Of a DNA stretch of 64,000 bases, positions 1 to 31,585 are shown piece after piece; position 1 is the stretch's first letter, and each line of letters starts with the position of its first letter. The stretch spans positions 62,001 to 126,000 of the forward strand of contig JANQKF010000032.1 of assembly GCA_028281285.1 (NCBI GenBank), read 5' to 3'. A program made the translations under genes and the position numbers. Origin of the DNA: Cyclobacteriaceae bacterium (lineage in GTDB: Bacteria > Bacteroidota > Bacteroidia > Cytophagales > Cyclobacteriaceae). Under the pieces are notes generated by a model. That model searched no databases. It was not told the origin of the DNA and saw nothing but the letters and a program-made list of their open reading frames with translations.

Positions 1-688
1 TATTCGCAAGGACATAAATGTATTCGTTGTTACTACTCCAATTCTCATATGTCCACTTTAATCGCGTAATACCTGTTTCATAAGATATTAAAATATCAAA
101 CTTGAGGTGGGCATTTAAGGGAACGTCTTTCACCACACCGGATACCATTAGGTTCACCTGTTCTCCATCAATCACCACTTTAATGAACTCGCCCATAGGG
201 TCTTCATCACCAAAGTATTTTTCCGCAGCGGTTTCTGAAATGACCGCCATATCCGGGCCATTCAGAGCAGACTGTTTATTGCCACTAATGAAATCCCAAT
301 CAAAAAGTGTAAGCCATCCTGAATTGACAAAGTAAGCCCTATCTTCATTAAACGACCGTTGGTTACGTGAGAAGAGCAATCTTCCCCAATGTCTTGCCAT
401 GGCATATTCCTCGATTTCAGGAAAAACCTCTTTGGCCATTAAACCAGCTCCGGGATATATCTCAGCATCTTGAACACTAACCCCATCATCTCCATGATAG
501 ATTACAGAAAGCCTATAAATTTCATCAGCATTGGAATGAAAGCGGTCGTAACTCAATTCATATCTTGCATAAATTAAAATTAGCATTGAAACGGTCATTC
601 CTACCGTTAGCCCGAGGACATTAATTAAGGTAAACGTGATCCTTTTCTTAAAATTCCGAATAGCAATAAGAACGTTTCGCATCCACAT
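1..688 (-). CDS. FtsX/MacB-type ABC transporter permease, 3' end outside window (array member 13)
   Basis: Only the N-terminal 229 residues or so are present; the frame runs open off the left edge. It begins with a basic cytoplasmic leader, one TM helix (about 19-42) and the start of the first periplasmic MacB-type domain, with the family landmarks YELSYDRFHS, DEDPMGEF and NAHLKFDIL. It resembles its upstream neighbour (691-3141) more than any other member: in a 36-residue stretch across TM1, 28 residues are identical, which suggests a recent tandem duplication. The start at 688 is chosen because it puts Arg at position 11, as in most of the array, and leaves 2 nt after the preceding stop; ATG at 682 is the alternative. 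It is the third gene behind the promoter at 5590-5606. Confidence 0.93.
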   Translation of the reverse strand, partial: MWMRNVLIAIRNFKKRITFTLINVLGLTVGMTVSMLILIYARYELSYDRFHSNADEIYRLSVIYHGDDGVSVQDAEIYPGAGLMAKEVFPEIEEYAMARHWGRLLFSRNQRSFNEDRAYFVNSGWLTLFDWDFISGNKQSALNGPDMAVISETAAEKYFGDEDPMGEFIKVVIDGEQVNLMVSGVVKDVPLNAHLKFDILISYETGITRLKWTYENWSSNNEYIYVLAN

Positions 689-690
689 AG

Positions 691-3141
691 TTATTCGTAC
701 CTAAGCGCCTTTACGGGATTCTCATTAGCAGTTTTAATCGATTGCAAAACGATCGTAATTAAGGCAACCGATAATAAGACAATAGCCGGTATTAAGAACA
801 TGTACCATGTCATATCAATGCGATTGGCATAGCCGTCCAACCACTTATTTGCTCCGAAAAAGGCCAATGGTAATGCAATGATAATCGAAATGGCAATCAG
901 CTTCATGAAGTTTGAAGACATCAAACGAATGATATTAGCCGAAGTGGCGCCTAGCACTTTGCGAATGCCTATTTCTTTGATTCGCTGTTGCATCTCATAG
1001 AGCCCCAGCCCAAAAAGTCCAAGGATGGAGATGAATATCGATAAGCCCGAGAAAGTAGTAAATACAAACCCAAATTGTTGATCAGCCCGATATTGAGCAT
1101 CGAATTGCTCGTCTAAGAAGAAGTAATCGAAATCGCTACTTGGGTATACAGAAGTGTACAATTCTCTTATTTCATCTATCACGGCCTTATAATCACCATC
1201 TCCGGCATTTATCTTAAACGAGTAGTAATCACTACCAGCACCACTTGCATTCAAGAAAAGCACCATAGGTTCGACAGCGGTTTTCAAAGAATTATGATTA
1301 TAATCTTCAAAAACACCAACGACTGTATACTGATCACCACTCCCCCATGAAATTTTTTCTCCGATGGCTGCCTCGTTGGTAGCAAAGCCAAACTTCTTAC
1401 GGGCGGTTTCATTAATCAACATCATCATGTACCACTCTTGATCTTCCTGTTTAAATCCGGAGTGCTTGGTTAGATCGAAATTCTCACCGGCTGCCATTCC
1501 TAGCTGAAATGCCGGAACGAAATCAGAATCAACTCTGAAATTCGAAAAGTTGATACCAACACCAATATCAGTGCTTACCGCTCGCAATCCCGTGGTTGTA
1601 CTCATATCTCCAGTGCCTTGACCAAACACTGTCTCAGAAAATGTGACATGAGTAATTTTGCTGCTTCGCAATGCCTCGGTTTTCAAAACTCGCTGTTTTT
1701 CGATCCTTGCATCTCTATTCTCAGCCACTAAGGGAGCCCTCAAGACAATGGTTTGATCAATGTTCACTCCCAGTTCCTGACTTCTCATAAAGTTCACTTG
1801 TTTGTAGACAGTGATAGTGCCTACCAACAAAAGCATTGTGGCCGTAAACTGGAATACCACCAGGCTCTTTCGGAGAAATCGGCCTTGGGATGAATTTCGG
1901 AGCTTACCGCTCAGCACGGTCATGATCTTATAATTCGAAAGAATCAGAGAAGGATAAAAACCTGATGCAAAAGAACCCACAACAAACAATGCCATGAGCT
2001 GCATCATCAATCCAAGATCTCGTAATGGATTGAAAACCAGATCAGCTCCTATTGCATTATTGAAAAGTGGCAACACCATTTGAATACCAGTCACAGTCAA
2101 TACTAAAGCCAGGAAGTTTATAATCAATGCTTCTGTGAAAAACTGAGCCATCAAGGATTTCTTTTTTGAGCCTAATACCTTCCTTACTCCGACTTCCTTA
2201 CTTCGCTCTAGCGATTTCGCTGTTGCCAAATTGATATAGTTTACCCAGGCAATCGCTAACACAGCAAAGGCCACAATAAAAAGGATATCGACCATTTGGC
2301 GGCTTCCATTAACCTCAGCTTCAAACGTTCGGTTAGACTTGAGGTGGATATCAGTAAGCGGGTAAACTCTTAGAATTTCATCATTTGCATCATATCCACT
2401 CCTTTTGTAGAACGCCTGATTGAACCGCTCCTCAAAGTCTGCATCGAGATCTGAACTACTCAAGAGATATAAAAACTCGTTGTTCTGATTTAGTACATCA
2501 TGCTTCCACCCCATGTACTTCACCCCTGTTTGCCATGACACCAGAATATCAAAACCCAAATGACTGTTTTTGGGAACATCCTTGAAAACACCGGTGACCA
2601 TCATTGGAAGCTCTGCTCCATTTGGAATTACATTGATCATTTGTCCGACAGGATCCTCGTTCCCAAAGTACTTCTTGGCTGCCGATTCTGACAACATCAC
2701 CTTATCGGCTTCCTCTAAAGCAGTATTTTTATCCCCTGCTATTACATTCCAATCAAAGACGTTCAACCAACCGGGATTGGCAAAATAGACTCGATCTTCA
2801 TTGAAGGAATTGTCTCCGTTCTTGAACAAAAGTCTGCCAACATGACGAGCCATCGCAAAGTTTTCGATCTCTGGAAATTCTTCGATAGCCAATAGACCAA
2901 CACCAGGGTACATTTGAGCATCAGCTACCTGGAATACTCCGTCATTCATCACATCGAGAGACACTCGATAGATATCATCGGCCCTTGAATGGTAGCGATC
3001 ATAACTCAGCTCATAACGGGCATACGTCAGTATAAGTAAGGCTACAGTCATGCCGAGTGTAAGCCCAAGTATGTTTATTATCGTAAATGACTTCCTTTTT
3101 TTGAAGCCTCTTATCGCGAGTAAAATGTTGTTTCGAATCAT
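691..3141 (-). CDS. FtsX/MacB-type ABC transporter permease (array member 12)
   Basis: An 816-residue inner-membrane protein with eight predicted TM helices in two repeats. TM1 is at about 19-42, a periplasmic domain at 45-280, TM2-4 at 283-306, 333-358 and 380-402, TM5 at 425-447, then a second periplasmic domain and TM6-8. The coupling-helix-like motif KEVGVRKVLGS lies at 315-325 and recurs as KEIGIRKVLGA 95 residues from the C-terminus. The protein ends NPVKALRYE. In MacB/LolCDE-family transporters this loop contacts the ATPase, so the protein should work with an ABC ATPase that is not encoded nearby. It lies 10 nt after 3152-5563 and 2 nt before the edge gene. The substrate cannot be inferred. 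Confidence 0.95.
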   Translation of the reverse strand: MIRNNILLAIRGFKKRKSFTIINILGLTLGMTVALLILTYARYELSYDRYHSRADDIYRVSLDVMNDGVFQVADAQMYPGVGLLAIEEFPEIENFAMARHVGRLLFKNGDNSFNEDRVYFANPGWLNVFDWNVIAGDKNTALEEADKVMLSESAAKKYFGNEDPVGQMINVIPNGAELPMMVTGVFKDVPKNSHLGFDILVSWQTGVKYMGWKHDVLNQNNEFLYLLSSSDLDADFEERFNQAFYKRSGYDANDEILRVYPLTDIHLKSNRTFEAEVNGSRQMVDILFIVAFAVLAIAWVNYINLATAKSLERSKEVGVRKVLGSKKKSLMAQFFTEALIINFLALVLTVTGIQMVLPLFNNAIGADLVFNPLRDLGLMMQLMALFVVGSFASGFYPSLILSNYKIMTVLSGKLRNSSQGRFLRKSLVVFQFTATMLLLVGTITVYKQVNFMRSQELGVNIDQTIVLRAPLVAENRDARIEKQRVLKTEALRSSKITHVTFSETVFGQGTGDMSTTTGLRAVSTDIGVGINFSNFRVDSDFVPAFQLGMAAGENFDLTKHSGFKQEDQEWYMMMLINETARKKFGFATNEAAIGEKISWGSGDQYTVVGVFEDYNHNSLKTAVEPMVLFLNASGAGSDYYSFKINAGDGDYKAVIDEIRELYTSVYPSSDFDYFFLDEQFDAQYRADQQFGFVFTTFSGLSIFISILGLFGLGLYEMQQRIKEIGIRKVLGATSANIIRLMSSNFMKLIAISIIIALPLAFFGANKWLDGYANRIDMTWYMFLIPAIVLLSVALITIVLQSIKTANENPVKALRYE

Positions 3142-3151
3142 GCGTATAGAA

Positions 3152-5563
3152 TTATTCGTAGCGTAATGAATCAGCAGGGTTTGAAAATGCTGCCTTGACC
3201 ACCTGATACCCCACTGATAAAAATGTGATCATTAAAATAATTAAGATGGGTGTAATAAATAATAAGAGATGAATTGGCATTCGACTGGCAAAATTCGATA
3301 GCCATTGATCTACCATAAAATAGCCAACTGGCATCCCCATAAGAGAGGCCAATGCCAACAGCCAAACGTATTCTCTGCTAAGTAAGATAGAAATATTGCT
3401 TACCGAAGCTCCTAGTACTTTTCTTATACTCACCTCCTTACTTCTTTGACTAATATTGTAAAGGGATAAACCAAACAAACCAAGTCCTGTGATCACCACC
3501 GCGAGTACTGAAAAGAAAGTAAAAATCTCTCCGAAAAGGCGGTCATTCTGATATTGACGGTTGAAATACTCATCCATAAAAAAGTAGTCGAAGTGGCTGG
3601 CTGGAAAACTGGTGTCAAAAGCCGCTTCTATCTCCGTAATCTTCTGACCTATATTGTCACCTTGCAACTTGATCGAAAAGAATCGGGTGCGCCCAAATGA
3701 GCTGTAAATATGCGGTTCTGAACTTACCTTTAACGATTCCTGGTTGTAATCGGCCATAATGCCGATTAACCTCTGTGGCCGGTCCAGGTAGTAATAGGTC
3801 TGATTAATTTTAGAGGCCAAATCATCTGTACCAAACAGGTATTCGGCTGCAGAAAGGTTCAACATAAAACAGTTGGTTTGATTGGAACCATCAAAGCTTG
3901 TCCCATAGAGCAATTCGACATCATATATATCCAGGAAGGATTCATCAATATCGATATCCTTGGCATAGAGGTAATGACTATTGTCCTCTGGCCCTAATGA
4001 CACCGCTCTCATTCTGGTGATCACATTGCCAGGCACTTCGGAGGAGGCTGTAATTCCATTCACTCCACTAATCTGATTCACCTGATTAAGGAATGAATCA
4101 TGGCTACCAGCTCTGTTCGCTGAATCCATAAAAGGTTTCTTGATCACCAAGGTTTGTTCAATATCCATGCCCAGTGATTGATTTTGGAGATAATTCAATT
4201 GCTGGAAGACTGAAACTGTACCAATGATCAAAATGAGCGCAACGACAAACTGAAATACAGTCAACCCTTTTCTGAGTACTAAACCGGACTTCGTGGATTT
4301 GCTTCTCCCGGTCAGCACCTGAGTGATTTTCAACCTTGAAAACAACAGAGCCGGGTATAAACCGAACAAAAAGGAACCTGCAGAAAAGGCAAGAATGAAA
4401 ATCAAAGTTGTTTGAAGTGCTCCGCCTGAGAAATAGGCCAATGGAATACCGAGCAATCCCTGAAAAAAACCAATAGAAAGTTGCAGTAGTGTGAACGTCA
4501 AGATAATCGCAATTAGGTTGACGGTCAGAGACTCGGTCAAAAATTGACCTATCAATTGCCGTTTGTAACCTCCCAATACTTTTCGAACACCAACCTCTCT
4601 GGCCCTGTCGACCAACTTGGAGGTACTGAGGTTGATATAGTTCACCCAAGCAATCACCATGATAAACACACCAATGATTGAAAGAAAATTTACTGTTCTT
4701 TCATTACCATTTGCCTCCAATTCGAAGGTAAGGTTAGACTTTAGATGAATATCCTGAATAGGTTGTAATCGAAAGGTAATTCCTTCCTCGCTATACCAGG
4801 TCTCCTTGTCTTCCAGAAAGATGTTGATCTTATCATAAACAACTTCAAGATCGGCTTCAGGTGCTAATTTCAAATAAGTGTAGAAATTACCCCATCCATA
4901 GTCCTGATCCAGTTCCCAGCCTTGTGGCAACGAGCCGAAAGAGCAAAGCAGGTCGAACTTAAAATGAGTGTTATCTGGTAAGTCTTCGAAAACCCCAGTG
5001 ACCAGGTACTCCTGTCGCATGTTCTTAAACTGGAGGACTTTGCCCACGGCTCGCTCCTCACCAAAAAAGCGTCTGGCAAATGATTCAGAAATCACCAATT
5101 CATTTGGATTCTTTAGAGAACTGCTGCCGTCATTGTCGATCCAGTTAAGGGTAAGAATCTCAAGGGCATCTCCATCTGCAAAGAAGCCTCTTTCAATGTT
5201 GAATGTCTTTATTGATCCCGTTTGAGGGATATAAGAGAAAGCAAATGATTGAAAAATCTTTGCCGAGCCTATGAATCGAGTAGCCTTCTCAATCTCAGGG
5301 ATATTAGCCTTGATATTGGGTGCAATTGCAGGAAATATAGAAGCAACAGCGCTGAAATCATTAGGAGACTCAGAATGTCGATACAGGCGATAGATATCTT
5401 CCACATTCTCATGATAGTCATCATAACTTCTTTCGAACGTGACATATTTGTAGATCAAAAGGCAAGCGACCATTGAAAAGGACAAGCCCACGATATTAAT
5501 CAGTGAGAACACTTTATTGTTCTTCAACTGGCGAATTGCAAGCAACAGATTTGTTTTGACCAT
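3152..5563 (-). CDS. FtsX/MacB-type ABC transporter permease, first gene of second transcription unit (array member 11)
   Basis: An 803-residue double permease. Residues 1-20 are a basic leader, TM1 is about 21-42, and the first ectodomain carries ERSYDDYHE, GEERAVGKV and LQPIQDIHLKS. TM2 (about 293-315) leads into REVGVRKVLGG at 322-332. The second half ends with KEVSIRKVLGA and NPADSLRYE. Unlike every other array junction it is preceded by a real gap (139 bp), which contains a sigma-54 promoter and two activator-type sites. The predicted transcript starts about 16 nt before this ATG. It is therefore the likely head of a co-regulated sub-operon with 691-3141 and 1-688. Confidence 0.95.
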   Translation of the reverse strand: MVKTNLLLAIRQLKNNKVFSLINIVGLSFSMVACLLIYKYVTFERSYDDYHENVEDIYRLYRHSESPNDFSAVASIFPAIAPNIKANIPEIEKATRFIGSAKIFQSFAFSYIPQTGSIKTFNIERGFFADGDALEILTLNWIDNDGSSSLKNPNELVISESFARRFFGEERAVGKVLQFKNMRQEYLVTGVFEDLPDNTHFKFDLLCSFGSLPQGWELDQDYGWGNFYTYLKLAPEADLEVVYDKINIFLEDKETWYSEEGITFRLQPIQDIHLKSNLTFELEANGNERTVNFLSIIGVFIMVIAWVNYINLSTSKLVDRAREVGVRKVLGGYKRQLIGQFLTESLTVNLIAIILTFTLLQLSIGFFQGLLGIPLAYFSGGALQTTLIFILAFSAGSFLFGLYPALLFSRLKITQVLTGRSKSTKSGLVLRKGLTVFQFVVALILIIGTVSVFQQLNYLQNQSLGMDIEQTLVIKKPFMDSANRAGSHDSFLNQVNQISGVNGITASSEVPGNVITRMRAVSLGPEDNSHYLYAKDIDIDESFLDIYDVELLYGTSFDGSNQTNCFMLNLSAAEYLFGTDDLASKINQTYYYLDRPQRLIGIMADYNQESLKVSSEPHIYSSFGRTRFFSIKLQGDNIGQKITEIEAAFDTSFPASHFDYFFMDEYFNRQYQNDRLFGEIFTFFSVLAVVITGLGLFGLSLYNISQRSKEVSIRKVLGASVSNISILLSREYVWLLALASLMGMPVGYFMVDQWLSNFASRMPIHLLLFITPILIILMITFLSVGYQVVKAAFSNPADSLRYE

Positions 5564-5589
5564 GATTGTTGAACTTATGGCTGATCTAT

Positions 5590-5606
5590 GGCAATAGCAA
5601 TACCAA
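5590..5606 (-). promoter_or_regulatory. sigma-54 (-24/-12) promoter before permease 3152-5563
   Basis: The minus strand reads TTGGTATTGCTATTGCC. GG at 5604-5603 and GC at 5592-5591 are exactly 10 nt apart, as sigma-54 requires, with TTGG and TTGC intact in the two elements. Transcription would start near 5579, giving a leader of about 16 nt to the ATG at 5563. Two activator-type sites lie about 55-95 bp upstream at 5659-5698. The match and spacing are seen directly; promoter activity is inferred. Confidence 0.75.
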
Positions 5607-5658
5607 AAACCTATCTATTTGTATTTGAGATAGTTATGAATTGAAAGGTAATATTTGA

Positions 5659-5698
5659 TTGTGTCAGCCTGATACGCAATTGTCCCAGACTGACACAA
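5659..5698. promoter_or_regulatory. paired upstream activator sites (same motif as at 30087-30127)
   Basis: There are two 18-bp sites in opposite orientation. Site B on the plus strand at 5681-5698 reads TGTCCCAGACTGACACAA. Site A on the minus strand at 5676-5659 reads CGTATCAGGCTGACACAA. Their centres are 22 bp apart, about two helical turns. Site B matches site C at 30087 at 16 of 18 positions and has an outer TGTC-N7-GACA dyad. Position upstream of a GG-N10-GC promoter fits an NtrC-type enhancer; the obvious candidate protein is the activator at 30169-31542. Confidence 0.72.
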
Positions 5699-5702
5699 CT
5701 TG

Positions 5703-8117
5703 TTATTCATACCTTAACGAATCTACGGGGTTTCTCGAAGCTGATTTAAAAGCCAACGATCCGGTCGTAACCAAGGTGATGATCAATATTATAGCCACTG
5801 GAAATACAAAAACCATAAGACTCAGTTCTGTGGCGAAAGAATATCCACTTAGCCATTGCTTGGTGGCATAGTAAGAAATCGGGATTGATATCAAAATTGA
5901 CAGGAAGATCATTCCTATAAATCTTTTAGAGATGAGGTTGATAATGCCCAATATACTTGCGCCCAAGACTTTTCTAATACCAATCTCTTTGCTGCGTTGT
6001 ATCACAGAATAAGAGACCAACCCAAACAGACCAAGGCATGATATCCAAATCCCCAACAATGTAAAAAAGTTGAATACGGTCCCGAACCTTCTATCCTCTT
6101 CAAATTGTCTCTCGAAGAACTCATCAAGGAAGAAATAATTAAAGGTGTCTGTTGGATAAATGGCACTATATGTCGATTCCAATTTATCCAGCAACAATTC
6201 ATAATCATCACTCATTGATTTGATAATCATGTAATTATTAGCTTCAGGCAAATGCCTATAAATAATAGGGTCGTAGCCTGTTTTGAAAGACTTCTGCAGG
6301 TAGTCTTCTACTACTCCAACCACCAAAAACTCTACGCCCCCATCGAGGATCTTGATACCAACTGCGTCTTCAGGATTAGTGATTCCGAATGCTCTTGCTC
6401 CTGCACGACTGAACATGACGCTTGCAGTGTCCGACTTAAGTTCAGCATTGAAATTTCTTCCAGCTATTACCTTCAATGAGAGGTTATCAACAAAGCGATC
6501 ATCTACCCCAAGAAACGGAATGGAAACGATTTCATCTTCATTGGCAGTAGCCAGCCTTACATTGTTGTTTACCCAGCTAATTTCTCCACCAGGAATCATG
6601 GTTGAATTTGAAACACCCATGACCTCTGGATGTGCCAGTAATCCAGCTTTGAACGACTTAATTAGAGATGCACTATTGTTACCAGACGCTGGTCCATTGA
6701 CAACAATCATTTGTTCCGAGTTGAATCCGCGATCAGAAGTAAGCATATACTTAATTTGACTTCTCACAGCCAGACTGCCAATAAGTAGAAAACACAGAAT
6801 TGTGAACTGTAAAACCACCAATCCCTTTCTTACCAAACCATCGCTACCTGACTTTATCTTTTGACCTTTCAACACTTTTGTGGCATTCATCTTTGACATG
6901 ATCCAGGCAGGATAAAACCCAGAAAGCAAAGTACCAGCGGTGATCATAATTACCACCAATGTGAAAAGCTGTGTTTTAATGGTGGAAAATTCACCAAATG
7001 ATTTCCCTAAAGCGGATTCAAAGAACGGTAGCGTGAGTTGCATCAATGTAAACCCAAGTACTATACTAAGAAAGTTCAGTAGAAATGCTTCGCACATGAA
7101 TTGGATCAAAAGATTGAGTCGATTAGCCCCACTCACCTTTCGTACCCCTATCTCTTTGGCTCTTTCCATTGATTTTGAAGTCGAAAGATTGATATAGTTG
7201 AAATAGGCCAGGACAACAATGAAAATTGAAATACCAGTTAGGATCTTTACTACTCTGAAGTTGCCTAATGGCCCTACTTCAAACCTTAAATTGGAATGCA
7301 AATAAATATCCTGAAGGGGCTGTAACTTCAACACTGGTTTGACACCTCTTTCAATTATACTCGTGTAATTTCGTTGAGCAAACTCCGGAAACTTCGCTTC
7401 AAGTTTTTGATAATTCGCACCTTCAGCCAATTTGAGATATGTTGGGAAGGCATTCCAGCCAAAAGACCGATCTGATTGCCCGCCAGAAAGCTTGTGCAAT
7501 GTTTCTAAAGAGATCAACACATCAAATTGGAAATGAGTATTTGAAGGAAGTTCATTGAAAACTGCCGTCACTTTGCATTGCTGAATACCCCATCCATTTT
7601 CAACTTCAATGATCTCACCAATCACGTCAGTTTTACCAAAATAGCTTAACGCTCTTTCTTCTGAAATTACAATGGAATTCATCTCTGCAAGTGCTGAATT
7701 GCCATCACCTATTTTCAATTCAAATGAGAAGAGGTCAAAAAATGAGTGATCTGCATAAAAGATATCCTTTTCAATAAACTTGCTCCCGTTAATCGACAAG
7801 GTATTTGTCATGTATCCTGCCGAATGGATTTTTGTATAATTGACTACCTCTGGAAACTCGTCCTTTAATGCCTGCCCCGCTCCAGCGGTAAGTCCCGCAC
7901 TCTTATCATGACGGTCTGAATAGATTCTCTCAAACTGTACGCGATAAAGATTGTCGGCATCCTCATGGAAGTTGTCAAAACTTTGTTCGAACGTAATGAA
8001 TTGAAAAATCAACAGGAATGCACCGAGACCTATAGCTAAACCTGAGATATTAATAAAAGAGAAGACCTTATTCTTGAAAAGACTTCTAATGGCTGTTTTG
8101 AGATAGTTTCTGACCAT
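5703..8117 (-). CDS. FtsX/MacB-type ABC transporter permease, last gene of first transcription unit (array member 10)
   Basis: An 804-residue eight-TM double permease. TM1 is at about 21-42; the first ectodomain has EQSFDNFHEDADNLYRV, NTHFQFDVL and LQPLQDIYLHS. TM2 is at about 291-312, followed by KEIGVRKVSGA at 321-331. The second half has the FLDEFFERQF landmark before TM6, then KEIGIRKVLGA at about 710 and NPVDSLRYE at the end. It starts 11 nt after the stop of 8129-10555. Its stop is followed by the 139-bp regulatory gap at 5564-5702, so it is the tenth and probably last gene of the transcript that begins near 29998, unless there is read-through. No ATP-binding motifs are present. Confidence 0.95.
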   Translation of the reverse strand: MVRNYLKTAIRSLFKNKVFSFINISGLAIGLGAFLLIFQFITFEQSFDNFHEDADNLYRVQFERIYSDRHDKSAGLTAGAGQALKDEFPEVVNYTKIHSAGYMTNTLSINGSKFIEKDIFYADHSFFDLFSFELKIGDGNSALAEMNSIVISEERALSYFGKTDVIGEIIEVENGWGIQQCKVTAVFNELPSNTHFQFDVLISLETLHKLSGGQSDRSFGWNAFPTYLKLAEGANYQKLEAKFPEFAQRNYTSIIERGVKPVLKLQPLQDIYLHSNLRFEVGPLGNFRVVKILTGISIFIVVLAYFNYINLSTSKSMERAKEIGVRKVSGANRLNLLIQFMCEAFLLNFLSIVLGFTLMQLTLPFFESALGKSFGEFSTIKTQLFTLVVIMITAGTLLSGFYPAWIMSKMNATKVLKGQKIKSGSDGLVRKGLVVLQFTILCFLLIGSLAVRSQIKYMLTSDRGFNSEQMIVVNGPASGNNSASLIKSFKAGLLAHPEVMGVSNSTMIPGGEISWVNNNVRLATANEDEIVSIPFLGVDDRFVDNLSLKVIAGRNFNAELKSDTASVMFSRAGARAFGITNPEDAVGIKILDGGVEFLVVGVVEDYLQKSFKTGYDPIIYRHLPEANNYMIIKSMSDDYELLLDKLESTYSAIYPTDTFNYFFLDEFFERQFEEDRRFGTVFNFFTLLGIWISCLGLFGLVSYSVIQRSKEIGIRKVLGASILGIINLISKRFIGMIFLSILISIPISYYATKQWLSGYSFATELSLMVFVFPVAIILIITLVTTGSLAFKSASRNPVDSLRYE

Positions 8118-8128
8118 AGTTTTTGAGT

Positions 8129-10555: not shown

Positions 10556-10560
10556 TTTCC

Positions 10561-17834: not shown

Positions 17835-17836
17835 GT

Positions 17837-20248: not shown

Positions 20249-20257
20249 AAAAAGCAA

Positions 20258-22675: not shown

Positions 22676-22676
22676 A

Positions 22677-25121
22677 CTATTCATATCGAAGAGATTTAAT
22701 TGGGTTCACCAATGCCACCTTTAGCACCTGTGTACCAACAATGAGTAATGAGACAAACATTATAGCTAGGAAAGGAAGTAAAAACAGCATACCTGACATT
22801 CCAATCTTATACACATATTGATTCAGCCAACTCTGAAGCAAATAGTAACTAATTGGAATTGCTACTATTCCAGATATAACAATCAGCAATACAAAGCTTT
22901 TAGAGAGTGTTAAAAATAGCTGTGGAAGACTTGCTCCTAACACCTTTCGTATTCCTACTTCCTTCGAGCGCTGGATGATGACGAATGAGGCAACACCTAG
23001 CAAACCAAGAGCCCCGATGAATATTGCCAACCCGGAAAAGAAGGAGAACAAGCGCCCGGCATTCTCTTCACTTTTAATGACAGAATCGAATAGATTGCTA
23101 GCAAATGTGTAGCTGAACGGTTTATCCGTGAATTCCGACCAAATGGTCTCAGCTCTTTGCACCACATCACCCCAGTTTTCCCCAAGAAATCTTACTGAAA
23201 CTGCTTCTTGAGGGTTGCTGAATTCAAAAATGAATGGTTCTATTTTGTCTTTCATTGATCCATGCTGAAAATTCTCGACCACACCAATCACCGTCAGAGG
23301 CTTTCTCAACCCAATGTTTTCCACCTGTTTCCCTATCACTTCATCAATAGGCCAGCCCCAGACCTCCAGGAATCTTCTATTCACGATAATGCTGCTCGAA
23401 TCATTAAAACTGATTGAATTAAAGTTTCTCCCGGCAACAAGCTCAATATTGTAGGTGTTCAGATAGTACTCATCAACAAAAGCGCTTTTGATCCTTAAGG
23501 TCTGATCATTTTCATCGTTTAAAGCGTCATAACCGGACATACCATATTCATTGCTACCAATGGGCACAAAGCCGGATAGGCTGGCGCTCTCGATAATAGA
23601 TTCATTTTTTAGCCGATCTCTTAATGTTAAATTGTTCTTCCCTACTTGTTCTACATCATCAATAATAAGCACCTGATCTTTCGCATAGCCCAAGTCATGG
23701 TTTCTCATGAGCTCAATCTGGCTCTTAATACCGGCCACACCTATAATCAGCAATAGGGATATGGAAAACTGGAAAATGATCAATCCGTTTCTGAATAGAC
23801 TTGACTTACCAGAGCGTTTTATTCCTCCCTTTAAAGCTGCACCCGGACTGCAAGAAGCTAGCGCAATTGAAGGGTATAACCCTGAAAGCATTCCTAAACC
23901 TATGGCACCAAGGAAGAGCCACCCAACTGTAGTCAACATTTCAACCAATGGCGGAATTATCTGCATGCCAACCAACTCATTAATAATGGGTGCAGTGACT
24001 TGTATGGTCGTGATTCCAAGAAACAATGACACACAAACGATTAGTACCGATTCAAAAAGGAACTGGAAAATCAGTTGGCCCCTCAATGATCCAAGGACCT
24101 TTCTTATTCCAACTTCCTTATGTCTTTTTAAACCTGCAACAGAGGACAGATTCATAAAATTGATCGCTGCCATCAGAAGAACCAGAAGCGAGACTCCAGT
24201 GAAAATTTTCACATAGGTCTTATCCCCGTTTTCAGCCAATTCTAATTCGTAATGAGAATTAAGATGGATAGATTTCAGTGGTTGATAGAAGAAATCGAAA
24301 TAGGTGCCCTTTTGAGCGAAATATTCTTCATAAGTAGTTCCTAAAAAGTCGCGCATATCTGAGGCCAGATAAGTTGAACGCTTATCAACCAGCTTTGAGA
24401 CAAACTCGTCAGCATCAGCATCAGGTCTCAACTGGAAGTAATGGTAGAACGCATTGCTAAGCCAATGGGTATCGCTTGCCTCCGCACCAAGTGTGGTCAT
24501 CGAAATCAGGAAATTATAAGTGTAGTGAGTATTGTCTGGTACATCCTCGCTTATGCCGGTGATTTTGAGTGGGTCATCAATTTCCTGCACTTCAATAAAC
24601 TCACCAATGACCGGCTTCTTCCTCCAATCCTGTCCAAAATATTTGGCGGCCATGGTTTCAGTAATCACCACCAAATTGGGTTCTGAAAGCGCCCTGTCCT
24701 TGTCTCCTTCCAATAGTCTGATATTGAAAAAATCAAAGAAATTACCATCGGCAAACATTCGAGTCATGGAAGGTTCCTTGATCTCCATATCCTTATACTT
24801 CACATAGTATTCCCTTCTGATCCAGGGATACAAACGCGTAGCATCAACAACCTCTGGGAAATCTGCCTTAATCGTTTGGGCCACAGGTGCTCCCCAGAAC
24901 GGTACTGCTATTTCGCTACCTCCTAGGTTCGTCTCCAGACCTAAACGAATAATATCTTCGGCATTTGGATTGTAGCTGTCATAACTGGTCTCAAATCGAA
25001 CATATTCAGTGATCGCGATAAACGAAGCCAACCCCAGTGATAGTCCAATAACATTGATCGCAGTGAAACCCTTGTTTCGCTTAATATTTCGAATGATCGT
25101 TTTTAAGTAGTTCTTGAACAT
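22677..25121 (-). CDS. FtsX/MacB-type ABC transporter permease (array member 3)
   Basis: 814 residues, start MFKNYLKTIIRNI, beginning 2 nt after the stop of 25124-27562. TM1 is at about 21-42; ectodomain 1 has RFETSYDSYNPNAEDIIRL, where Asn-Pro replaces the common FHxxADxIYR, plus NTHYTYNFL and YQPLKSIHLNS. TM2 contains INFMNLSSVAGLKRHKEVGIRKVLGSL. The loop after TM4 is SGLYPSIALASCSPG. Ectodomain 2 carries VVENFQHGSMKDKIEP, while the segment before TM6 (FASNLFDSVIKSEENAGRLFS) lacks the usual FLDExFxxQY. It ends KEVGIRKVLGA ... NPIKSLRYE. Confidence 0.94.
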   Translation of the reverse strand: MFKNYLKTIIRNIKRNKGFTAINVIGLSLGLASFIAITEYVRFETSYDSYNPNAEDIIRLGLETNLGGSEIAVPFWGAPVAQTIKADFPEVVDATRLYPWIRREYYVKYKDMEIKEPSMTRMFADGNFFDFFNIRLLEGDKDRALSEPNLVVITETMAAKYFGQDWRKKPVIGEFIEVQEIDDPLKITGISEDVPDNTHYTYNFLISMTTLGAEASDTHWLSNAFYHYFQLRPDADADEFVSKLVDKRSTYLASDMRDFLGTTYEEYFAQKGTYFDFFYQPLKSIHLNSHYELELAENGDKTYVKIFTGVSLLVLLMAAINFMNLSSVAGLKRHKEVGIRKVLGSLRGQLIFQFLFESVLIVCVSLFLGITTIQVTAPIINELVGMQIIPPLVEMLTTVGWLFLGAIGLGMLSGLYPSIALASCSPGAALKGGIKRSGKSSLFRNGLIIFQFSISLLLIIGVAGIKSQIELMRNHDLGYAKDQVLIIDDVEQVGKNNLTLRDRLKNESIIESASLSGFVPIGSNEYGMSGYDALNDENDQTLRIKSAFVDEYYLNTYNIELVAGRNFNSISFNDSSSIIVNRRFLEVWGWPIDEVIGKQVENIGLRKPLTVIGVVENFQHGSMKDKIEPFIFEFSNPQEAVSVRFLGENWGDVVQRAETIWSEFTDKPFSYTFASNLFDSVIKSEENAGRLFSFFSGLAIFIGALGLLGVASFVIIQRSKEVGIRKVLGASLPQLFLTLSKSFVLLIVISGIVAIPISYYLLQSWLNQYVYKIGMSGMLFLLPFLAIMFVSLLIVGTQVLKVALVNPIKSLRYE

Positions 25122-25123
25122 TT

Positions 25124-27562
25124 CTATTCCTGTCTTAAAATTTCTGAAGGGTTTTTTCTGGCGGCTTTACCAATTTGGCTAAGAGCTGTGATTGCCGTAA
25201 TTCCAAGACAAACCATCAGGGCCAAAAAGTAGACCCACCATTCTATGGATGTTCTATAAACAAAGTCTTCCAGCCAATTGGACATTCCTATATAGGAAAT
25301 GGGAATAGCGATTAACAACGCAATCAGAAGGAGTTTGGCATAGTCTTTCGATAAAAGAATCACCAACGATTTGACGTTAGCACCAAGAACTTTTCTGATG
25401 CTCATCTCTTTCAAGCGCTTCTGCAAAGCGAAGTGAACAAGAGCAAACAAGCCTATAAAGGCGATGAAAACGGCAATAAATGCAGCAATAAAGAATAAAT
25501 TACTTCTCTTCTCATCCTCAACATAATAGCGATTCAGCTTCTCGTCCAGGAAGTTAAACCCGAATGGGCTTGGGTCAAATTGCTTCATCACTCCTTTAAG
25601 GCGTTCCATAGTCTCACCCATTCTATTTGCATTCAGTTTTACCACATAGTAGTCGATGTTTTGAAGGATGTTATGTTTGAAGCCAAATAGCATTGGAGGA
25701 ATTTCCTCTCTCAAGGATTGAAAATGGAAATCATTGATCACCCCAATGACCTGAAAACGTACCGTATGTCTAATTCCCTGAATCTGGGCTCCCGTACGAA
25801 CGCCATAAAGCTCCAATGTTTGACCAACCGCATTTTCAAGACCCAATTGACGAGCCATCGTCTCATTGATCATCACCTTTGTAGAATCACCCTCACCCGA
25901 CCTGAAATTTCTTCCCTGGAGTAAATCAATATCAAATACATCCAAGAAATTCTCATCTACTCCCAGGAAGGGGACATCTTCAATTTCAAAGGCTTCATTG
26001 CTCCGCAGTGACACTTGGTAATAACTCTTCCATTCAGCAGGAACTCTGCTCACAGCAGATGCACCAATTACGTCCGGATCTTTTCTAAAACCGTCTAGAA
26101 TTAAGGCCTCGTTTTCCCTTGCTTTGTTGCTGCTGATCTCTATGACGGCAAGTGCTTCCTGATCATAGCCCAAGTCTTTGTCATTGATAAAACTTAATTG
26201 GTTGTAAACCACCAAAGTGGCTACAATCATTACCAAAGAAGTAATGAATTGAAAGAGGACTACACCTTTGAAAAAGGTTTGTTTCTTACCTCCAAAGGTT
26301 TGATTTCTAAGTGATTCGACAGTTTTTCCCTTGATGACTGTCAAAGCCGGGTAAACACCAGCGGCCATACCCAAAACGAGTACAGTTCCAATAAGTCCTC
26401 CAAGGAACTCTGTGGTATAAATAAATCGCAGCAGATTACTTTCAAAAAGAAGAATTACCAATGGACCTGAGAATTGAATCATTGTAATAGCCAGGATAAG
26501 CGATATCAAGGAAATGAAAACCGATTCACTCATAAATTGCATGATCAACTGATTCCTATCTGCTCCGACAACCCTTCTAAGACCAATCTCTTTGATCCTG
26601 TCCGTAGCTTTAATTGTCGATAGATTGATGTAATTGGTAAAGGCGATTGCAAGAATTAATACTCCTATAAATGCAAAAATGTACAGATAACTCAGATCAC
26701 CTTTTCGGTTGTTCATATCACCCTCGAGATGGGCTGATCCAAAGTGGATATCTGTTAGTGGCTGAAGACTAAAAGACCTTTCCCAAGTGAGTTCCTCAGG
26801 CTTATTTCTTTTCGCCATTTCATTGATTTGAGCTTCTATCGATGTAAGATCAACTGCATCATTAAGTTTCAGGTAGGTGGTCATACTTTGTTGGACCCAA
26901 TCACCATCATAGTATGAAGTGAATCCATTGAAGAATGAATTGATTGTGCTGAAATCCAGAAGCATGTCCACATCCAAGTGAGAGTTATCGGGCATCTTCT
27001 TCATCACACCGGTCACCTTCAATAGATAATCCTCTCCATTCAGATGAGTTTTGATAGTTCTGTCGATTGGGTCTTCACTACCAAAAAACTTCGCTACCAG
27101 GGCTTCAGACATTACAACATTCAACGGATCGCTGAATACATCTTCCGGTCTGCCCGATATTAAAGGAAAATCAAAAAATGAGAAGAAATCTGAATCTACT
27201 ACCATAAAAGGAGTCTCAAATTCATTTTCACCATATACCAAATTGAGTCCGCCAGAACCAAGACTCATCATTCGCATGTGATTGGTCACCCCCGCGATTT
27301 GTTCAGAACTAGCCAGCCCAAGTGCTCCCCCAACTCTGGCTACCTTACGATCGGGTTGGCCCGGGTCTTCAATATGTTCAATCATCCTGTAGGTTCGGCT
27401 GGCATCCTTATGGAATGCATCGAAGCTCAGTTCACTTATCAAGTAAGCGGAGATGATCAAAACCGAAGCCAGGCCGATTGAAAGCCCCAATATGTTGACC
27501 AACGAAAACACCCTCTTTCTAAGAATGGTGCGACAAGCTATTTTGAAGTAATTTTTGAGCAT
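25124..27562 (-). CDS. FtsX/MacB-type ABC transporter permease (array member 2)
   Basis: 812 residues, start MLKNYFKIACRTI, 10 nt after the first array gene. TM1 is at about 21-43; ectodomain 1 has ELSFDAFHKDASRTYRM, GSEDPIDRT, NSHLDVDML and LQPLTDIHFGS. TM2 continues into TNYINLSTIKATDRIKEIGLRRVVGA. Ectodomain 2 is slightly longer than average (LELYGVRTGAQIQGIRH insertion) and has VINDFHFQSLREEIPPML and FLDEKLNRYYVEDEKRSN before TM6. The second coupling motif is KEMSIRKVLGA and the C-terminus NPSEILRQE. The substrate is unknown. The position directly behind the lead gene implies high expression when the upstream promoter fires. Confidence 0.95.
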   Translation of the reverse strand: MLKNYFKIACRTILRKRVFSLVNILGLSIGLASVLIISAYLISELSFDAFHKDASRTYRMIEHIEDPGQPDRKVARVGGALGLASSEQIAGVTNHMRMMSLGSGGLNLVYGENEFETPFMVVDSDFFSFFDFPLISGRPEDVFSDPLNVVMSEALVAKFFGSEDPIDRTIKTHLNGEDYLLKVTGVMKKMPDNSHLDVDMLLDFSTINSFFNGFTSYYDGDWVQQSMTTYLKLNDAVDLTSIEAQINEMAKRNKPEELTWERSFSLQPLTDIHFGSAHLEGDMNNRKGDLSYLYIFAFIGVLILAIAFTNYINLSTIKATDRIKEIGLRRVVGADRNQLIMQFMSESVFISLISLILAITMIQFSGPLVILLFESNLLRFIYTTEFLGGLIGTVLVLGMAAGVYPALTVIKGKTVESLRNQTFGGKKQTFFKGVVLFQFITSLVMIVATLVVYNQLSFINDKDLGYDQEALAVIEISSNKARENEALILDGFRKDPDVIGASAVSRVPAEWKSYYQVSLRSNEAFEIEDVPFLGVDENFLDVFDIDLLQGRNFRSGEGDSTKVMINETMARQLGLENAVGQTLELYGVRTGAQIQGIRHTVRFQVIGVINDFHFQSLREEIPPMLFGFKHNILQNIDYYVVKLNANRMGETMERLKGVMKQFDPSPFGFNFLDEKLNRYYVEDEKRSNLFFIAAFIAVFIAFIGLFALVHFALQKRLKEMSIRKVLGANVKSLVILLSKDYAKLLLIALLIAIPISYIGMSNWLEDFVYRTSIEWWVYFLALMVCLGITAITALSQIGKAARKNPSEILRQE

Positions 27563-27572
27563 GACCTTGTTT

Positions 27573-29984
27573 TTATTCTTCTCTTAGCGAATTCACGGGA
27601 TTAGAACTCATCGACTTTTTCAATACTATGACAATGGCCGAGAATCCAGCCAAATACAAAAGGAAGAACGGTATTGAAAAGTCAAACAGACTAAGTCTTA
27701 TTCTGGATTCAAACCCATTTAACCAACTGATTATCAAATAATATGATACAGGAATTGAAATAATAGCTGCAATAATGTAGGCCCAATTGCCATGACGTGT
27801 GAAAAGGCTCAATAAATTAGACCAGCCAGCACCGAGTACTTTCCGAATACTGATTTCCTTAGCTCTTCTGACCACAGCAAAATAGGTAATACTGGCAAGC
27901 CCCGTTAGTGCCAGAATAACCGTAAGAAGCCCAAATCCGGTTAGCAGTTTACCAAGCCTTTCCTCTTTCTCGAATTGTCTGTTATAATAGTCATCAAGAA
28001 AGAATGACTTGTAGATATTTCCCGGAAAGACTTCATTGAAAGTTTCCTCAATGGCTGCGAGTGTTGATTTTAAATTATCAGTGGATAGGGCTAAAGAATA
28101 GTAACCTCTGCTTTCTGTGTCAAGGGCTATCAAAATTGGCTGCCTTGGGTACTCAGCAGACTGATGATGGTAATCTTCAACTACACCAATGATATGTCGT
28201 ATGTACTCCTCTTCCGGGCTGGTAACTCGTTTTCCGATAGCCTCGGCTGGTGAACCAAAGCCCAAGGCCCTCATTGCCGACAAGTTGATGACGGCAGCAT
28301 TATCGTCAGTCGCAAGTTCTCTGGAAAAATTCCGACCTTCCACAAACTCTAATTCGTAGAGATCGATAAAGTCATAGTCGACCGTGTGTTCATGGATATT
28401 TACATTAGCACTCTCAGGTTTGCCAAACTCTCTAATGCCATAGTCGGCTATTCTTCCTCCGGGAACGGCATACGATGAAGCTACTTGACTCACACCCGGA
28501 ATTCTTCGCCACTCTTCCTTTATAACATCCGGATTGGCGGAAAAGGTATCATAATCAAATGCTCTTGGCTCTCTAACCACATAAACCCCTTCAATTCGTG
28601 TTCCGGCATCAATTGACTTGAGGTGACTCAGCTGTTGATAGACTACAGAAATGATGATCAACAGCATCAACGATACTGCAAACTGAACTGAAGTAAGCCC
28701 GTTTCGAATTGTGTTCAAACCAGCTCCGAGGTTACTGATTCTCTTTTTAAGGGCTACCAACATGTTTATTCTGCTCAGCAGAATGGCTGGATAAAACCCC
28801 GAAATCAAACTTCCGAAAAGGACGCCTGCAATCATCCAAATGTATATAGTGAGATCTTCTGCGTAGGCGGTGGGAATACTGGCAAATCGGTGAAGGGAAG
28901 GCAGCAATAGCTGATAAAGACTTAAGGCAAAAAGAAAGGCCAGAAAGTTCACTCCTATCGATTCCACAAAATGTTGGCGAACGATATAGCCCCTCGAAGC
29001 TCCCAACACCTTTCTGACTCCGGATTCTTTAATTCTATCCAGGCCTTTAGCAATAGTAAGATTAACAAAGTTGACCCATGACATGCCAAGAATGACAAAA
29101 CCAATCAGCAAAAAGATAATTACCTTCGTTTTTGCCTGATTGAAAGTTCCGACCGACTCAAAATCAGATTCAAGCCGAATTTCATCAACTGGCTGAAGCG
29201 AAATAGTCTCATCTACCGAAGCACTTCCTCGAATCGGTTTATTTTGATTGACCACTTGACTAATGTTCCTTTCAAACTCAGTCACATCGACACCCTGTTC
29301 AAGTTTTATATAGGTCTTCATCCTTGGCCAATCCCAGGAAGTCTGATGAAAATCAACATTGTGTCGTGCCCCTATGCTATTAAAGGATTTTACCACATCG
29401 AAATCGAGATGGCTATTTTGATCCCATCGTTTAAAGACGCCCACTACTTCGTAATCTCGTCCGTCATCTTCCTGAATCAACTCTCCCACTGGATTACGAT
29501 CGCCATATATGTTTTTAGCCAGGCGATCAGAAATAAGAACGGTAAATGGTTCGTCCAATCTCCGATACTCACCTAACGTCAATCTCAAATCAAAAACATC
29601 GAAGAAAGCCGTTGAAGCAAACAGGGTTTTGAGATCATCTCTGAGCTTTTCCTTGTCATCATACCTGAACTTGGTAAGTATACCACCGCGGCTATTGTAC
29701 ATCACTTTTTCAATACCATCAATTCCCGGATAGTTCTCTGCAATTGCCCTGGCCATTGCGGGATAGGTATCACGAGATATTGAAATAACTTCTTCATCTA
29801 CCTCCCGAGTCATAATCAGTCTGAAAATTCGATCAGACTCACTGTGGAATTTGTCAAAGCTATATTCGAACCTGACATAATGGAGGATTAAAAGAAAAGC
29901 GGCCATACCAACAGCAAGGCCACTTATATTAAGGATAGAAATGTATCGGTGCTTAAGCAGTATCCGATAAAATATTTTGAGCAT
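27573..29984 (-). CDS. FtsX/MacB-type ABC transporter permease, lead gene of the array (array member 1)
   Basis: 803 residues from ATG at 29984 (MLKIFYRILLKHR). This start is preferred over ATG at 29996 because a GGAGGG sequence sits 4 nt upstream of it and the predicted sigma-54 transcript would begin near 29998, leaving almost no leader for the earlier ATG. TM1 is at about 14-36; ectodomain 1 carries RFEYSFDKFHSESDRIFRL, GDRNPVGEL and NSHLDFDVV. TM2 leads into LDRIKESGVRKVLGA (Ser for Gly-1). TM5 has SVQFAVSLMLLI; ectodomain 2 has VVEDYHHQSAEYPRQP and FLDDYYNRQFEKEERLG. It ends KEISIRKVLGA ... NPVNSLREE. It is divergent from the activator at 30169. Confidence 0.95.
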   Translation of the reverse strand: MLKIFYRILLKHRYISILNISGLAVGMAAFLLILHYVRFEYSFDKFHSESDRIFRLIMTREVDEEVISISRDTYPAMARAIAENYPGIDGIEKVMYNSRGGILTKFRYDDKEKLRDDLKTLFASTAFFDVFDLRLTLGEYRRLDEPFTVLISDRLAKNIYGDRNPVGELIQEDDGRDYEVVGVFKRWDQNSHLDFDVVKSFNSIGARHNVDFHQTSWDWPRMKTYIKLEQGVDVTEFERNISQVVNQNKPIRGSASVDETISLQPVDEIRLESDFESVGTFNQAKTKVIIFLLIGFVILGMSWVNFVNLTIAKGLDRIKESGVRKVLGASRGYIVRQHFVESIGVNFLAFLFALSLYQLLLPSLHRFASIPTAYAEDLTIYIWMIAGVLFGSLISGFYPAILLSRINMLVALKKRISNLGAGLNTIRNGLTSVQFAVSLMLLIIISVVYQQLSHLKSIDAGTRIEGVYVVREPRAFDYDTFSANPDVIKEEWRRIPGVSQVASSYAVPGGRIADYGIREFGKPESANVNIHEHTVDYDFIDLYELEFVEGRNFSRELATDDNAAVINLSAMRALGFGSPAEAIGKRVTSPEEEYIRHIIGVVEDYHHQSAEYPRQPILIALDTESRGYYSLALSTDNLKSTLAAIEETFNEVFPGNIYKSFFLDDYYNRQFEKEERLGKLLTGFGLLTVILALTGLASITYFAVVRRAKEISIRKVLGAGWSNLLSLFTRHGNWAYIIAAIISIPVSYYLIISWLNGFESRIRLSLFDFSIPFFLLYLAGFSAIVIVLKKSMSSNPVNSLREE

Positions 29985-30008: not shown

Positions 30009-30025
30009 GGCTAGAACTATGCCGA
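30009..30025 (-). promoter_or_regulatory. sigma-54 (-24/-12) promoter of the permease array
   Basis: The minus strand reads TCGGCATAGTTCTAGCC. GG at 30023-30022 and GC at 30011-30010 are separated by exactly 10 nt, and the -24 element retains GGCA. The -12 element is TAGC rather than TTGC, so it is weaker than the promoter at 5590-5606. The predicted start site is near 29998, about 14 nt before ATG 29984. The distance from the -12 C to the start codon is 26 nt here and 28 nt at the second promoter. The paired activator sites are about 64 bp upstream. Confidence 0.65.
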
Positions 30026-30168: not shown

Positions 30169-31542
30169 ATGTCCAAAACAGACGGCAAAATTCTCGTCTT
30201 AGACGATGACCAAGGTGTGCTGTATACAGCCAAAATGATTCTCAAACAGCATTTTGAGACTGTCATCACTGAAAAAGATCCAGCCAAGCTTGATTTTCTT
30301 CTCAACCAACACAAATACGATGTGATTGTGCTGGATATGAATTTCTCCTATGGTCTGACTAGCGGTAAGGAAGGAATTAAACTCTTGAAGAAGATTCTTC
30401 AAAAAGACCCCGATGCCCATGTGCTGATGAATACTGCCTATGGCGAAATTGAAATTGCTGTCGAGGCAATGAAAGAAGGAGCCGTGGACTTTTTGGTTAA
30501 ACCCTGGCAGAAAGAAAAGCTGCTGGCCACGGTTCAGGCAATTTACGCATTAAGCCAAACGAAAAAAGAGGTGGAAGACCTGAAAACCTCTCAAAAAATA
30601 ATTGTCAAAGATCAAGCGAAAGATTATTCCAAAATTATTAGCGAGAGTCCAATCATGAACCCGGTCTTCGATGCTATAAACAAAGTAGCCCAAACGGATG
30701 CTAACGTATTGGTTCTTGGAGAAAATGGGACAGGTAAAGAATTAGTGGCCAGAGCAATTCATGATAAATCTAGTCGTGCCGGAGAGAATTTCATCAAGGT
30801 CGATTTGGGAGCTATTCAGGAATCTTTGTTTGATTCTGAGTTATTCGGTCATGTGAAGGGAGCTTTTACTGACGCCAAGGAAGATCGGCCCGGTAGATTC
30901 GAAATGGCGAACGGAGGAACGCTGTTCTTAGACGAGATCGGTAATCTCTCTCTCCCACTACAAGCCAAACTCCTGACTGCTCTGCAATTCAAACAGATCA
31001 CAAGAGTCGGTTCAAACAAAGTGATCCCTTTGGATATTCGTTTGATTTGCGCTACTAATATGCCCCTCTATGAAATGGTGGCCGCCAATGAATTCAGACA
31101 AGACTTGTTGTATCGTGTAAATACAGTAGAGATCAAACTACCTCCACTACGCGAACGTGTTGAGGACATCACGCCTCTGGCAAAACATTTTCTTAAGCTA
31201 TTTGGCAAGAAGTACGGAAAGCCAAGAATGCGTTTAAATGAAACAACACTCAACAAACTAAGAAGCTATTCCTGGCCCGGCAATATTAGGGAGCTCCAAC
31301 ACTCTATGGAAAGGGCGGTGATAATGGCCAACTCTCACTTGTTAGCCCCTGAAGATTTTCTTCTACGCGATGAGCCGGCCGAGAATAACATTGCAATAGA
31401 CTCATTCAATATAGAGGACATGGAAAAAATAGCCATTCAGAATGCGGTCCGCAAAGCAGGTGGCAATCTTACTCAAGCCGCAAGACAATTGGGATTCGGT
31501 AGAAGCACACTCTATAGAAAAATGAGCAAATATGGCCTTTAG
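30169..31542 (+). CDS. NtrC-family sigma-54-dependent response regulator
   Basis: 457 residues with three domains. A receiver (1-122) has acidic residues at 12-14, phospho-acceptor Asp56, Thr89 and Lys111. An AAA+ sigma-54 activator domain (about 155-390) has Walker A GENGTGKE at 184-191, the sigma-54-contact loop GAFTDA at 231-236 in place of the classical GAFTGA, Walker B LFLDEIG at 252-258 and the FRQDLLYRVN arginine-finger region. A Fis-type helix-turn-helix (about 420-457) contains LTQAARQLGFGRSTLYRKM. It should open sigma-54 promoters when phosphorylated, presumably by the kinase at 32056. It is divergent from the permease array, whose two promoters both carry the paired sites described at 5659 and 30087. 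Regulation of the array is inferred from position and motif. Confidence 0.95.
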   Translation: MSKTDGKILVLDDDQGVLYTAKMILKQHFETVITEKDPAKLDFLLNQHKYDVIVLDMNFSYGLTSGKEGIKLLKKILQKDPDAHVLMNTAYGEIEIAVEAMKEGAVDFLVKPWQKEKLLATVQAIYALSQTKKEVEDLKTSQKIIVKDQAKDYSKIISESPIMNPVFDAINKVAQTDANVLVLGENGTGKELVARAIHDKSSRAGENFIKVDLGAIQESLFDSELFGHVKGAFTDAKEDRPGRFEMANGGTLFLDEIGNLSLPLQAKLLTALQFKQITRVGSNKVIPLDIRLICATNMPLYEMVAANEFRQDLLYRVNTVEIKLPPLRERVEDITPLAKHFLKLFGKKYGKPRMRLNETTLNKLRSYSWPGNIRELQHSMERAVIMANSHLLAPEDFLLRDEPAENNIAIDSFNIEDMEKIAIQNAVRKAGGNLTQAARQLGFGRSTLYRKMSKYGL

Positions 31543-31585
31543 TGCTAAAATTATTGTAGTATACCGCTGATTGTACTCACCTAAA

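Follow-up and report, generated by a model that had tools for sequence, protein, structure and literature searches.

The window analysed here is a stretch of 64,000 nucleotides from a Cyclobacteriaceae bacterium (C26:62001-126000, C26 being contig JANQKF010000032.1 of a 5.16-Mb assembly in 40 contigs), and its first 30 kb hold a tandem array of permease genes. Thirteen dual MacB_PCD/FtsX permease genes, all intact and all on the minus strand, occupy C26:60232-91996, that is, window positions 1-29996 and a further 1,769 bases to the left. They are named W1 to W13 from the first to the last transcribed, W13 lying mostly beyond the window edge. The genes have 803-849 codons, each scores between 841 and 1071 bits against the array profile, and MacB_PCD and FtsX domains each occur twice per chain in the two members scanned against Pfam (W12 and W1). 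With homology-based starts, the 12 junctions from W13 to W1 measure 2, 10, 139, 11, 5, -4, 0, 2, 9, 1, 2 and 10 nt, with no other gene type between the 13 genes, which confirms the layout given by an earlier sequence-only reading of this DNA (thirteen genes of one type, spaced at -4 to +11 nt apart from a single gap of 139 bp). No ATPase gene lies within or adjoining the array. Genes for a response regulator, a small protein and a histidine kinase run divergently from W1 (Table 1).

Table 1. Features of the permease array and its divergent neighbours, in window positions.
Feature	Position	Strand	Remarks
W13 permease, 5' part only	1..688	-	whole gene C26:60232-62688
W12 permease	691..3141	-	Pfam, homology-based start
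W11 permease, first gene of predicted second transcript	3152..5563	-	homology-based start
Internal sigma-54-like -24/-12 promoter	5590..5605	-	TGGTATTGCTATTGCC
Two putative operator palindromes, internal 139-bp gap	5680-5698, 5659-5677		
W10 permease, last before internal promoter gap	5703..8117	-	array profile, homology-based start
W9 permease	8129..10555	-	array profile, homology-based start
W8 permease	10561..12963	-	array profile, homology-based start
W7 permease	12960..15386	-	array profile, homology-based start
W6 permease	15387..17834	-	array profile; member folded, mean pLDDT 82
W5 permease	17837..20248	-	array profile, homology-based start
W4 permease	20258..22675	-	array profile, homology-based start
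W3 permease	22677..25121	-	array profile, homology-based start
W2 permease	25124..27562	-	array profile, homology-based start
W1 permease, first array gene	27573..29984	-	ATG at 29984 preferred over 29996
Sigma-54-like -24/-12 promoter of W1	30009..30024	-	CGGCATAGTTCTAGCC
Two putative operator palindromes before W1	30086-30104, 30109-30127		form TTGTnTCAnnnTGAnACAA
NtrC-type response regulator (receiver, sigma-54 activator, Fis-type HTH)	30169..31542	+	domain matches
Small protein	31571..32050	+	no Pfam match; signal-peptide-like start by eye
Sensor histidine kinase	32056..33393	+	domain matches (HATPase; weak PAS match below cut-off)
M61 peptidase	33492..35390	+	recurrent neighbour of this kinase in genus

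Each of the two promoter regions, before W1 and in the 139-bp gap between W10 and W11, has both a pair of palindromes and a sigma-54-like promoter, so that a -24/-12 promoter with upstream activator sites can be recognized in the sequence. The -24 element is clear, judged by the sigma-54 -24/-12 consensus. The arrangement was followed through the relatives, by which we mean the other genomes of the same genus (numbered G001 onwards), which the kinase homologs indicate to be Roseivirga (Bacteroidota). At the first promoter, two sites scoring at least 10 of 14 are found in 12 of 14 genomes (13 relatives and our own), and G007 and G006 have one each, the region of G007 being read only in part. 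In the 13 genomes read whole, the first palindrome lies 102-105 bp from the -24 element of a sigma-54 site, which is the best-scoring one in 12 genomes and the third-best in G001. At seven internal promoters the spacing is 92-93 or 102-103 bp, two values that differ by roughly one turn of the helix. Internal junctions shorter than 400 bp number 49 in the 13 relatives, and one of these belongs to a second cluster in the G016 stretch. No operator pair lies in the 41 junctions of at most 100 bp, and of the eight gaps longer than 100 bp five have two sites of at least 10 and that of G014 has one site scoring 12 and one scoring 9; a promoter accompanies the sites in each of these six. A strict form of the operator pattern matches only the array's two promoter regions in the 5.16 Mb, the reversed-pattern control giving 0. 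The earlier suggestion of two transcripts thus gains an operator and promoter set at the head of each, and stands as a prediction from the DNA rather than from RNA.

The regulator has a sigma-54 activator domain, and the genome encodes RpoN once, as an NtrC/sigma-54 regulon would require. The same genome encodes five paralogs of the kinase, 35-38% identical to it, each adjoining a paralogous regulator (one further match is larger and weaker). Next to four of these pairs lie permease runs of 15, at least 9, 6 and 2 genes; the fifth, on contig C13, borders adaptor, ATPase and OEP genes. The arrays on C28 and C1 and a second one on C26 (C26b) each have a private word that matches only their own first and internal promoters (reversed controls 0), with distances to the -24 element, first and internal, of 102/102 bp on C28, 87/86 bp on C1 and 101/101 bp in C26b. 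Because these words were read by comparing the first and internal promoters, their presence there is by construction; the informative outcome is their absence elsewhere together with the equal spacing. The C1 word could be a copied segment instead of a binding site, and no operator and promoter layout was found at the two-permease run on C12. It is very probable, on this sequence evidence, that the array is regulated by its NtrC pair through the predicted sigma-54 promoters.

An ORF resembling the small protein between regulator and kinase is found at the same place in 13 genus genomes, with none labelled in G007 and G009. As to horizontal mobility, the window holds no tRNA and gave no Rfam match at gathering scores, no other search for mobile elements having been made.

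The permeases themselves are related to known duplicated permeases, at some distance. In the two members scanned, W12 and W1, the best NCBIfam match was ADOP (TIGR03434), at 248.5 and 244.3 bits, far below the curated whole-protein cut-off of 622.3, and the second match of the permeases was DarB (NF038008), at 77.7 and 107.3 bits against a cut-off of 700. One member, W6, was folded and compared; its predicted model (pTM 0.76; confidence in Table 1) has eight long helices and is matched best by YbbAP (E 4e-19 but a TM-score of only 0.45), followed by 5xu1, a Type VII permease of Streptococcus pneumoniae, and MacB. The nearest solved chain by sequence is 3is6, a permease domain from Porphyromonas gingivalis. 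Together with the coupling-helix segments, which were read in all 13 genes, the model predicts a Type VII ABC permease fold for the array proteins, namely a MacB-type fold with a large periplasmic domain and a coupling helix.

According to the part of PMC5985334 consulted, the coupling helices of MacB contact its ATPase. Among ten segments compared over 126 permeases of our genome (dual, 640 aa or longer, with at least two truncated at contig ends), the two coupling helices are the most conserved, with mean information of 2.30 and 2.29 bits, and the two ectodomains average 1.33 and 1.19 bits. Of nine coupling-helix positions checked in the window genes, all 13 genes share six, and the remaining three are kept in 10, 10 and 8 of them. 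This conservation bears on the possibility that the permeases no longer transport and serve instead as receptors, scaffolds or enzyme activators whose helices move without ATP. Such a role would agree with the absence of an ATPase gene within or directly adjoining the four NtrC-linked arrays examined, and with the best profile match being ADOP, which we take to be an ATPase-less orphan family with large paralog sets. However, the segments that would contact an ATPase are the very ones best kept, and we consider loss of transport unlikely.

The array is one of several in this genome. MacB_PCD matches number at least 150, a lower bound since 150 were all that were scored of 295 candidates, and a few of them are single-FtsX permeases or second domains of one gene. 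Within the 829 kb examined there are the 126 dual permeases, and 30 of the 150 matches lie outside, which brings the genome to about 150 permeases. A longer run (C28:211937-248098) has 15 genes, the C1 array has at least nine and reaches the contig end, and C26b (C26:130989-146985) has six with a beta-lactamase-family gene between. The earlier description of an unusual run has to be set against a longer run, several arrays and so many such genes in the same genome. Elsewhere in the genus the complement varies, with 67 MacB_PCD matches in G006, 77 in G004 and at least 150 in G001. The beta-lactamase-family gene (C26:143231-144565) sits upstream of the internal promoter of C26b. A second permease class, of about 860-900 aa, has a permease prefix domain (two members scanned), often lies beside a PadR-type gene and forms further clusters; the window has two duplicated permeases of this class (permease prefix domain 2), at 53214-56197 and 60197-63115, both accompanied by a PadR-type gene.

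An ortholog of the kinase (61-77% identity) is present in 16 of the 18 other genus genomes, the two without it being 80-84% complete. The array beside it has 12, 7, 7, 7, 5, 4, 4, 3, 3, 3, 3, 2 and 1 genes in 13 relatives; in the three other kinase-bearing relatives the locus ends at a contig edge, and these stand outside the count. The count of array length in related genomes that the sequence-only reading had called for thus shows it to vary, from 1 to 13 genes at the orthologous locus with our own included. G001 has an extra permease 3 kb off, which groups with another gene of our genome. The 13 window genes are scattered through a clade of 195 in a 222-permease tree (deep nodes are weak, 0.70 for that clade), and all 61 array-locus genes of the relatives group with W lineages, assigned by hand from the tree with W12 and W13 counted as one. 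Gene order is kept across the genus, with 14 inversions in 164 pairs against a random mean of 81.5 and a lowest value of 41 in 20,000 shuffles. Ten lineages are represented in both halves of a six-protein tree rooted at its midpoint, and the W3 and W7 lineages are found only in our genome and G007. Since the relatives' genes share the window lineages in conserved order, the sequences indicate an array that is old and has mainly shrunk, barring transfer between species. We rejected recent tandem expansion as the principal source of the array: a moderately close pair is seen only in the adjacent W12 and W13 (55%), and the majority of lineages are genus-wide.

The history also bears on a simpler account, in which the array is an ordinary pile-up of tandem efflux-permease duplicates with minor or redundant roles, held together only by shared promoters. 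The number of paralogs in the genome and the rapid loss in relatives, down to a single gene, are what such a pile-up would give. Its members, however, are old and very different (mean pairwise identity 31% over 78 pairs), their order has been kept, the operator is retained in most long gaps, and the five gene pairs that could be used show purifying selection; we think this account improbable, about as much so as a loss of transport.

Those pairs come from a comparison of ectodomains with membrane parts. The sequence-only reading had described conserved membrane and C-terminal parts and strongly differing periplasmic domains, as of a repertoire diversifying what each member recognizes. Within the array the contrast is real and mild (mean identity 35% for membrane parts and 26% for ectodomains, 78 pairs), and ectodomain dN/dS exceeds that of the membrane part in four of five usable pairs, as diversifying selection on periplasmic recognition domains would predict. 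The ectodomain/membrane divergence ratio, however, has a median of 1.22 (0.77-1.79) in 11 ortholog pairs between our genome and G007 and of 1.39 (0.75-2.68) in six G001-G013 pairs, no higher than the 1.39 (0.65-2.24) of 12 control pairs, of which 11 are permeases from clusters that encode an ATPase of their own. dN/dS is 0.05-0.15 in ectodomains and 0.035-0.11 in membrane parts, six of the 11 pairs being unusable for saturated dS. Diversifying selection in the ectodomains was rejected for want of support in these values, and a recognition repertoire of that kind is very improbable; the ectodomains show no unusual speed of evolution, and the repertoire is mostly old and undergoing loss rather than newly diversified.

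A candidate source of energy is the operon beside the sister regulator-kinase pair on C13, whose adaptor, ATPase and OEP (TolC-type) genes come without a permease. The same set, with no permease in the stretch examined, is found in 15 of 16 relatives; the locus of the 16th ends at a contig edge, without a permease in 6.2 kb. G011 has two extra ORFs between the genes, and G007 and G009 have a second adaptor ORF. Identity over the 16 relatives is 91-97% for the ATPase, 66-82% for the adaptor and 45-73% for the OEP. The best NCBIfam match of the adaptor is DarC (NF038010, 164.4 of 450 bits) and that of the ATPase DarD (NF038007, 282.6 of 375 bits); none of the curated cut-offs of DarB, DarC and DarD was reached by the adaptor, the ATPase or the permeases. 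DarD-like ATPases (E<=1e-50) are few, with three in 14 of the 19 genus genomes, four in two, two in two and one in one. In the wider order, 33 of 118 genomes, our own included, match the C13 ATPase at E<=1e-100, and among 29 order relatives inspected the ortholog has an adjacent permease ORF in 20. The C13 ATPase is 72% identical to a Marinifilum ATPase lying between two dual permeases, and loci in Marinifilum, Labilibaculum, Colwellia, Shewanella and Pseudoalteromonas combine a kinase-regulator pair with adaptor, ATPase and dual permease; 39 of 70 loci surveyed have an adaptor-like ORF. The mismatch between permease and ATPase counts and the kept coupling helices make supply of an ATPase in trans plausible, though not proven.

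Three observations were made in passing at these loci. Between regulator and adaptor on C13 (C13:29076-29703; L208, about 5080-5700), 16 genomes share a conserved stretch with a terminator-like hairpin, GGCTCGG...CCGAGCC followed by a T run in our genome; its stem changes look compensatory by eye, as in a small-RNA gene, and the stretch has no Rfam match at gathering score. On C40 (C40:76569-81171; L224) an HD/PycTM (Pycsar-effector-like) gene precedes a dual permease that comes with a DarD-like ATPase of its own. M61 peptidases recur beside the kinase in the genus and beside DarC/DarD-like genes in three genomes of one other family (f10; L284, L287 and L288); an M61 peptidase is the neighbour in three of the nine order loci whose ATPase ortholog has no permease nearby.

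Taken together, we tentatively read the locus as a set of interchangeable Type VII ABC permeases under common regulation, with shared motors serving them in trans, a reading that we place only a little short of an even chance. The kinase/NtrC pair would sense an envelope signal, and the regulator would bind the paired palindromes about 100 bp upstream of the two sigma-54 promoters and switch on both halves of the array together. Each gene would give a pseudo-dimer in one chain, having a pair of periplasmic domains and a pair of conserved coupling helices, as predicted from the one member folded. Because the array has no ATPase gene, each permease would recruit a DarD-like ATPase encoded elsewhere, chiefly that of the C13 operon and possibly that of C40. 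Such motor sharing, suggested by gene counts, operon make-up and the kept coupling helices, is a possibility we hold somewhat less firmly than the reading as a whole. Different permeases may then offer one motor and exit duct different substrates, perhaps peptides or amphiphiles from the inner membrane or periplasm, a suggestion made with some doubt by analogy with MacB, DarBCD and YbbAP. More doubtful again is a hub-and-spoke form, in which one permease-less DarC/DarD/TolC-like complex would serve more than 100 orphan permeases, with orthogonal NtrC pairs choosing the set through private operators.

Several findings weigh against this reading. On the regulatory side, several -12 elements are imperfect, two of the eight long gaps (G013, 155 bp; G016, 125 bp) lack an operator pair, a one-mismatch search with an earlier form of the pattern gave six further places off the array against two for the reversed control, and a relaxed pattern gave one match on C20. 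There is also no copy of the array operator in the C13 regulator region, so the motor is not under the same word; an operator common to arrays and motor was not found in the operator pattern searches. As for the motor, permeases do occur on C13, the nearest ending about 12 kb from the operon; at E<=1e-100 the ATPase finds no counterpart in 85 of the 118 order genomes, and nine of the 29 order relatives have no permease within the roughly 1.5 kb examined around the ortholog. Our genome has 43 ABC_tran domain matches, among which not all MacB/LolD-class ATPases were counted. Finally, the C40 ATPase, with its adjacent permease, is equally conserved (93.7% against 93.6% for C13, 10 genomes). Conservation alone therefore does not mark C13 as the hub, and the idea of its ATPase as a uniquely conserved one is weakened.

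We know of no explanation for the role of the ATPase-less duplicated FtsX/MacB permeases that occur in large numbers. The locus ties a permease array to a regulator, operators and promoters and names a specific candidate motor, so that tests of what triggers orphan permeases and of what powers them come within reach. In addition, the four private operator words point to a ready-made panel of candidate orthogonal sigma-54 activators. That such permeases form large families, and that there is a sigma-54 link, has been published before. The part of PMC11573002 consulted gives 28 and 33 copies of an 'acidobacterial duplicated orphan permease' in two Dyadobacter strains, and that of PMC12316311 reports, in silico, an enrichment of sigma-54 promoters upstream of COG0577 permeases in Gammaproteobacteria, Opitutia and Bacteroidia. 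The latter system shares sigma-54 control of FtsX-like permeases with ours, and has no arrays, operators or separate motor operon in the part consulted. In searches of the open-licence PMC literature we recognized no description of arrays with private operators or of a permease-less motor operon. New here are the NtrC pair and putative operators at the array, the private words of its sisters, the evidence for an old array that has mainly shrunk, the lack of unusually rapid change in the ectodomains and the permease-less candidate motor operon.

The closest fold match of W6 is YbbAP, in which YbbP spans the membrane with ten helices and is partnered by the ATPase YbbA (PMC12646458, part consulted); the W6 model has eight long helices. 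MacAB-TolC is also near, as MacB is among the structure matches, but MacB bears its own ATPase domain. Like ADOP, the array proteins have two MacB_PCD/FtsX units in a single chain of about 800 aa and no ATPase gene alongside (the C40 permease, however, has one), and they differ in scoring far below its cut-off; the ADOP definition, as we understand it, does not include arrays with an NtrC pair and private operators. The darobactin exporter DarBCD is alike in supplying the best matches of the C13 adaptor (DarC) and ATPase (DarD) and the second match of the permeases (DarB), and unlike in that all scores fall below cut-off, in a comparison made without a search for a precursor peptide gene. In ECF group II transporters and with MsmK-type ATPases, one motor serves several membrane parts encoded elsewhere. 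These are importers of other superfamilies in which sharing has been demonstrated, whereas here we infer it; by analogy, the gene counts and operon make-up found here fit the same arrangement of one motor and many parts, and motor sharing, if true, would make this system a Type VII counterpart of the ECF modules.

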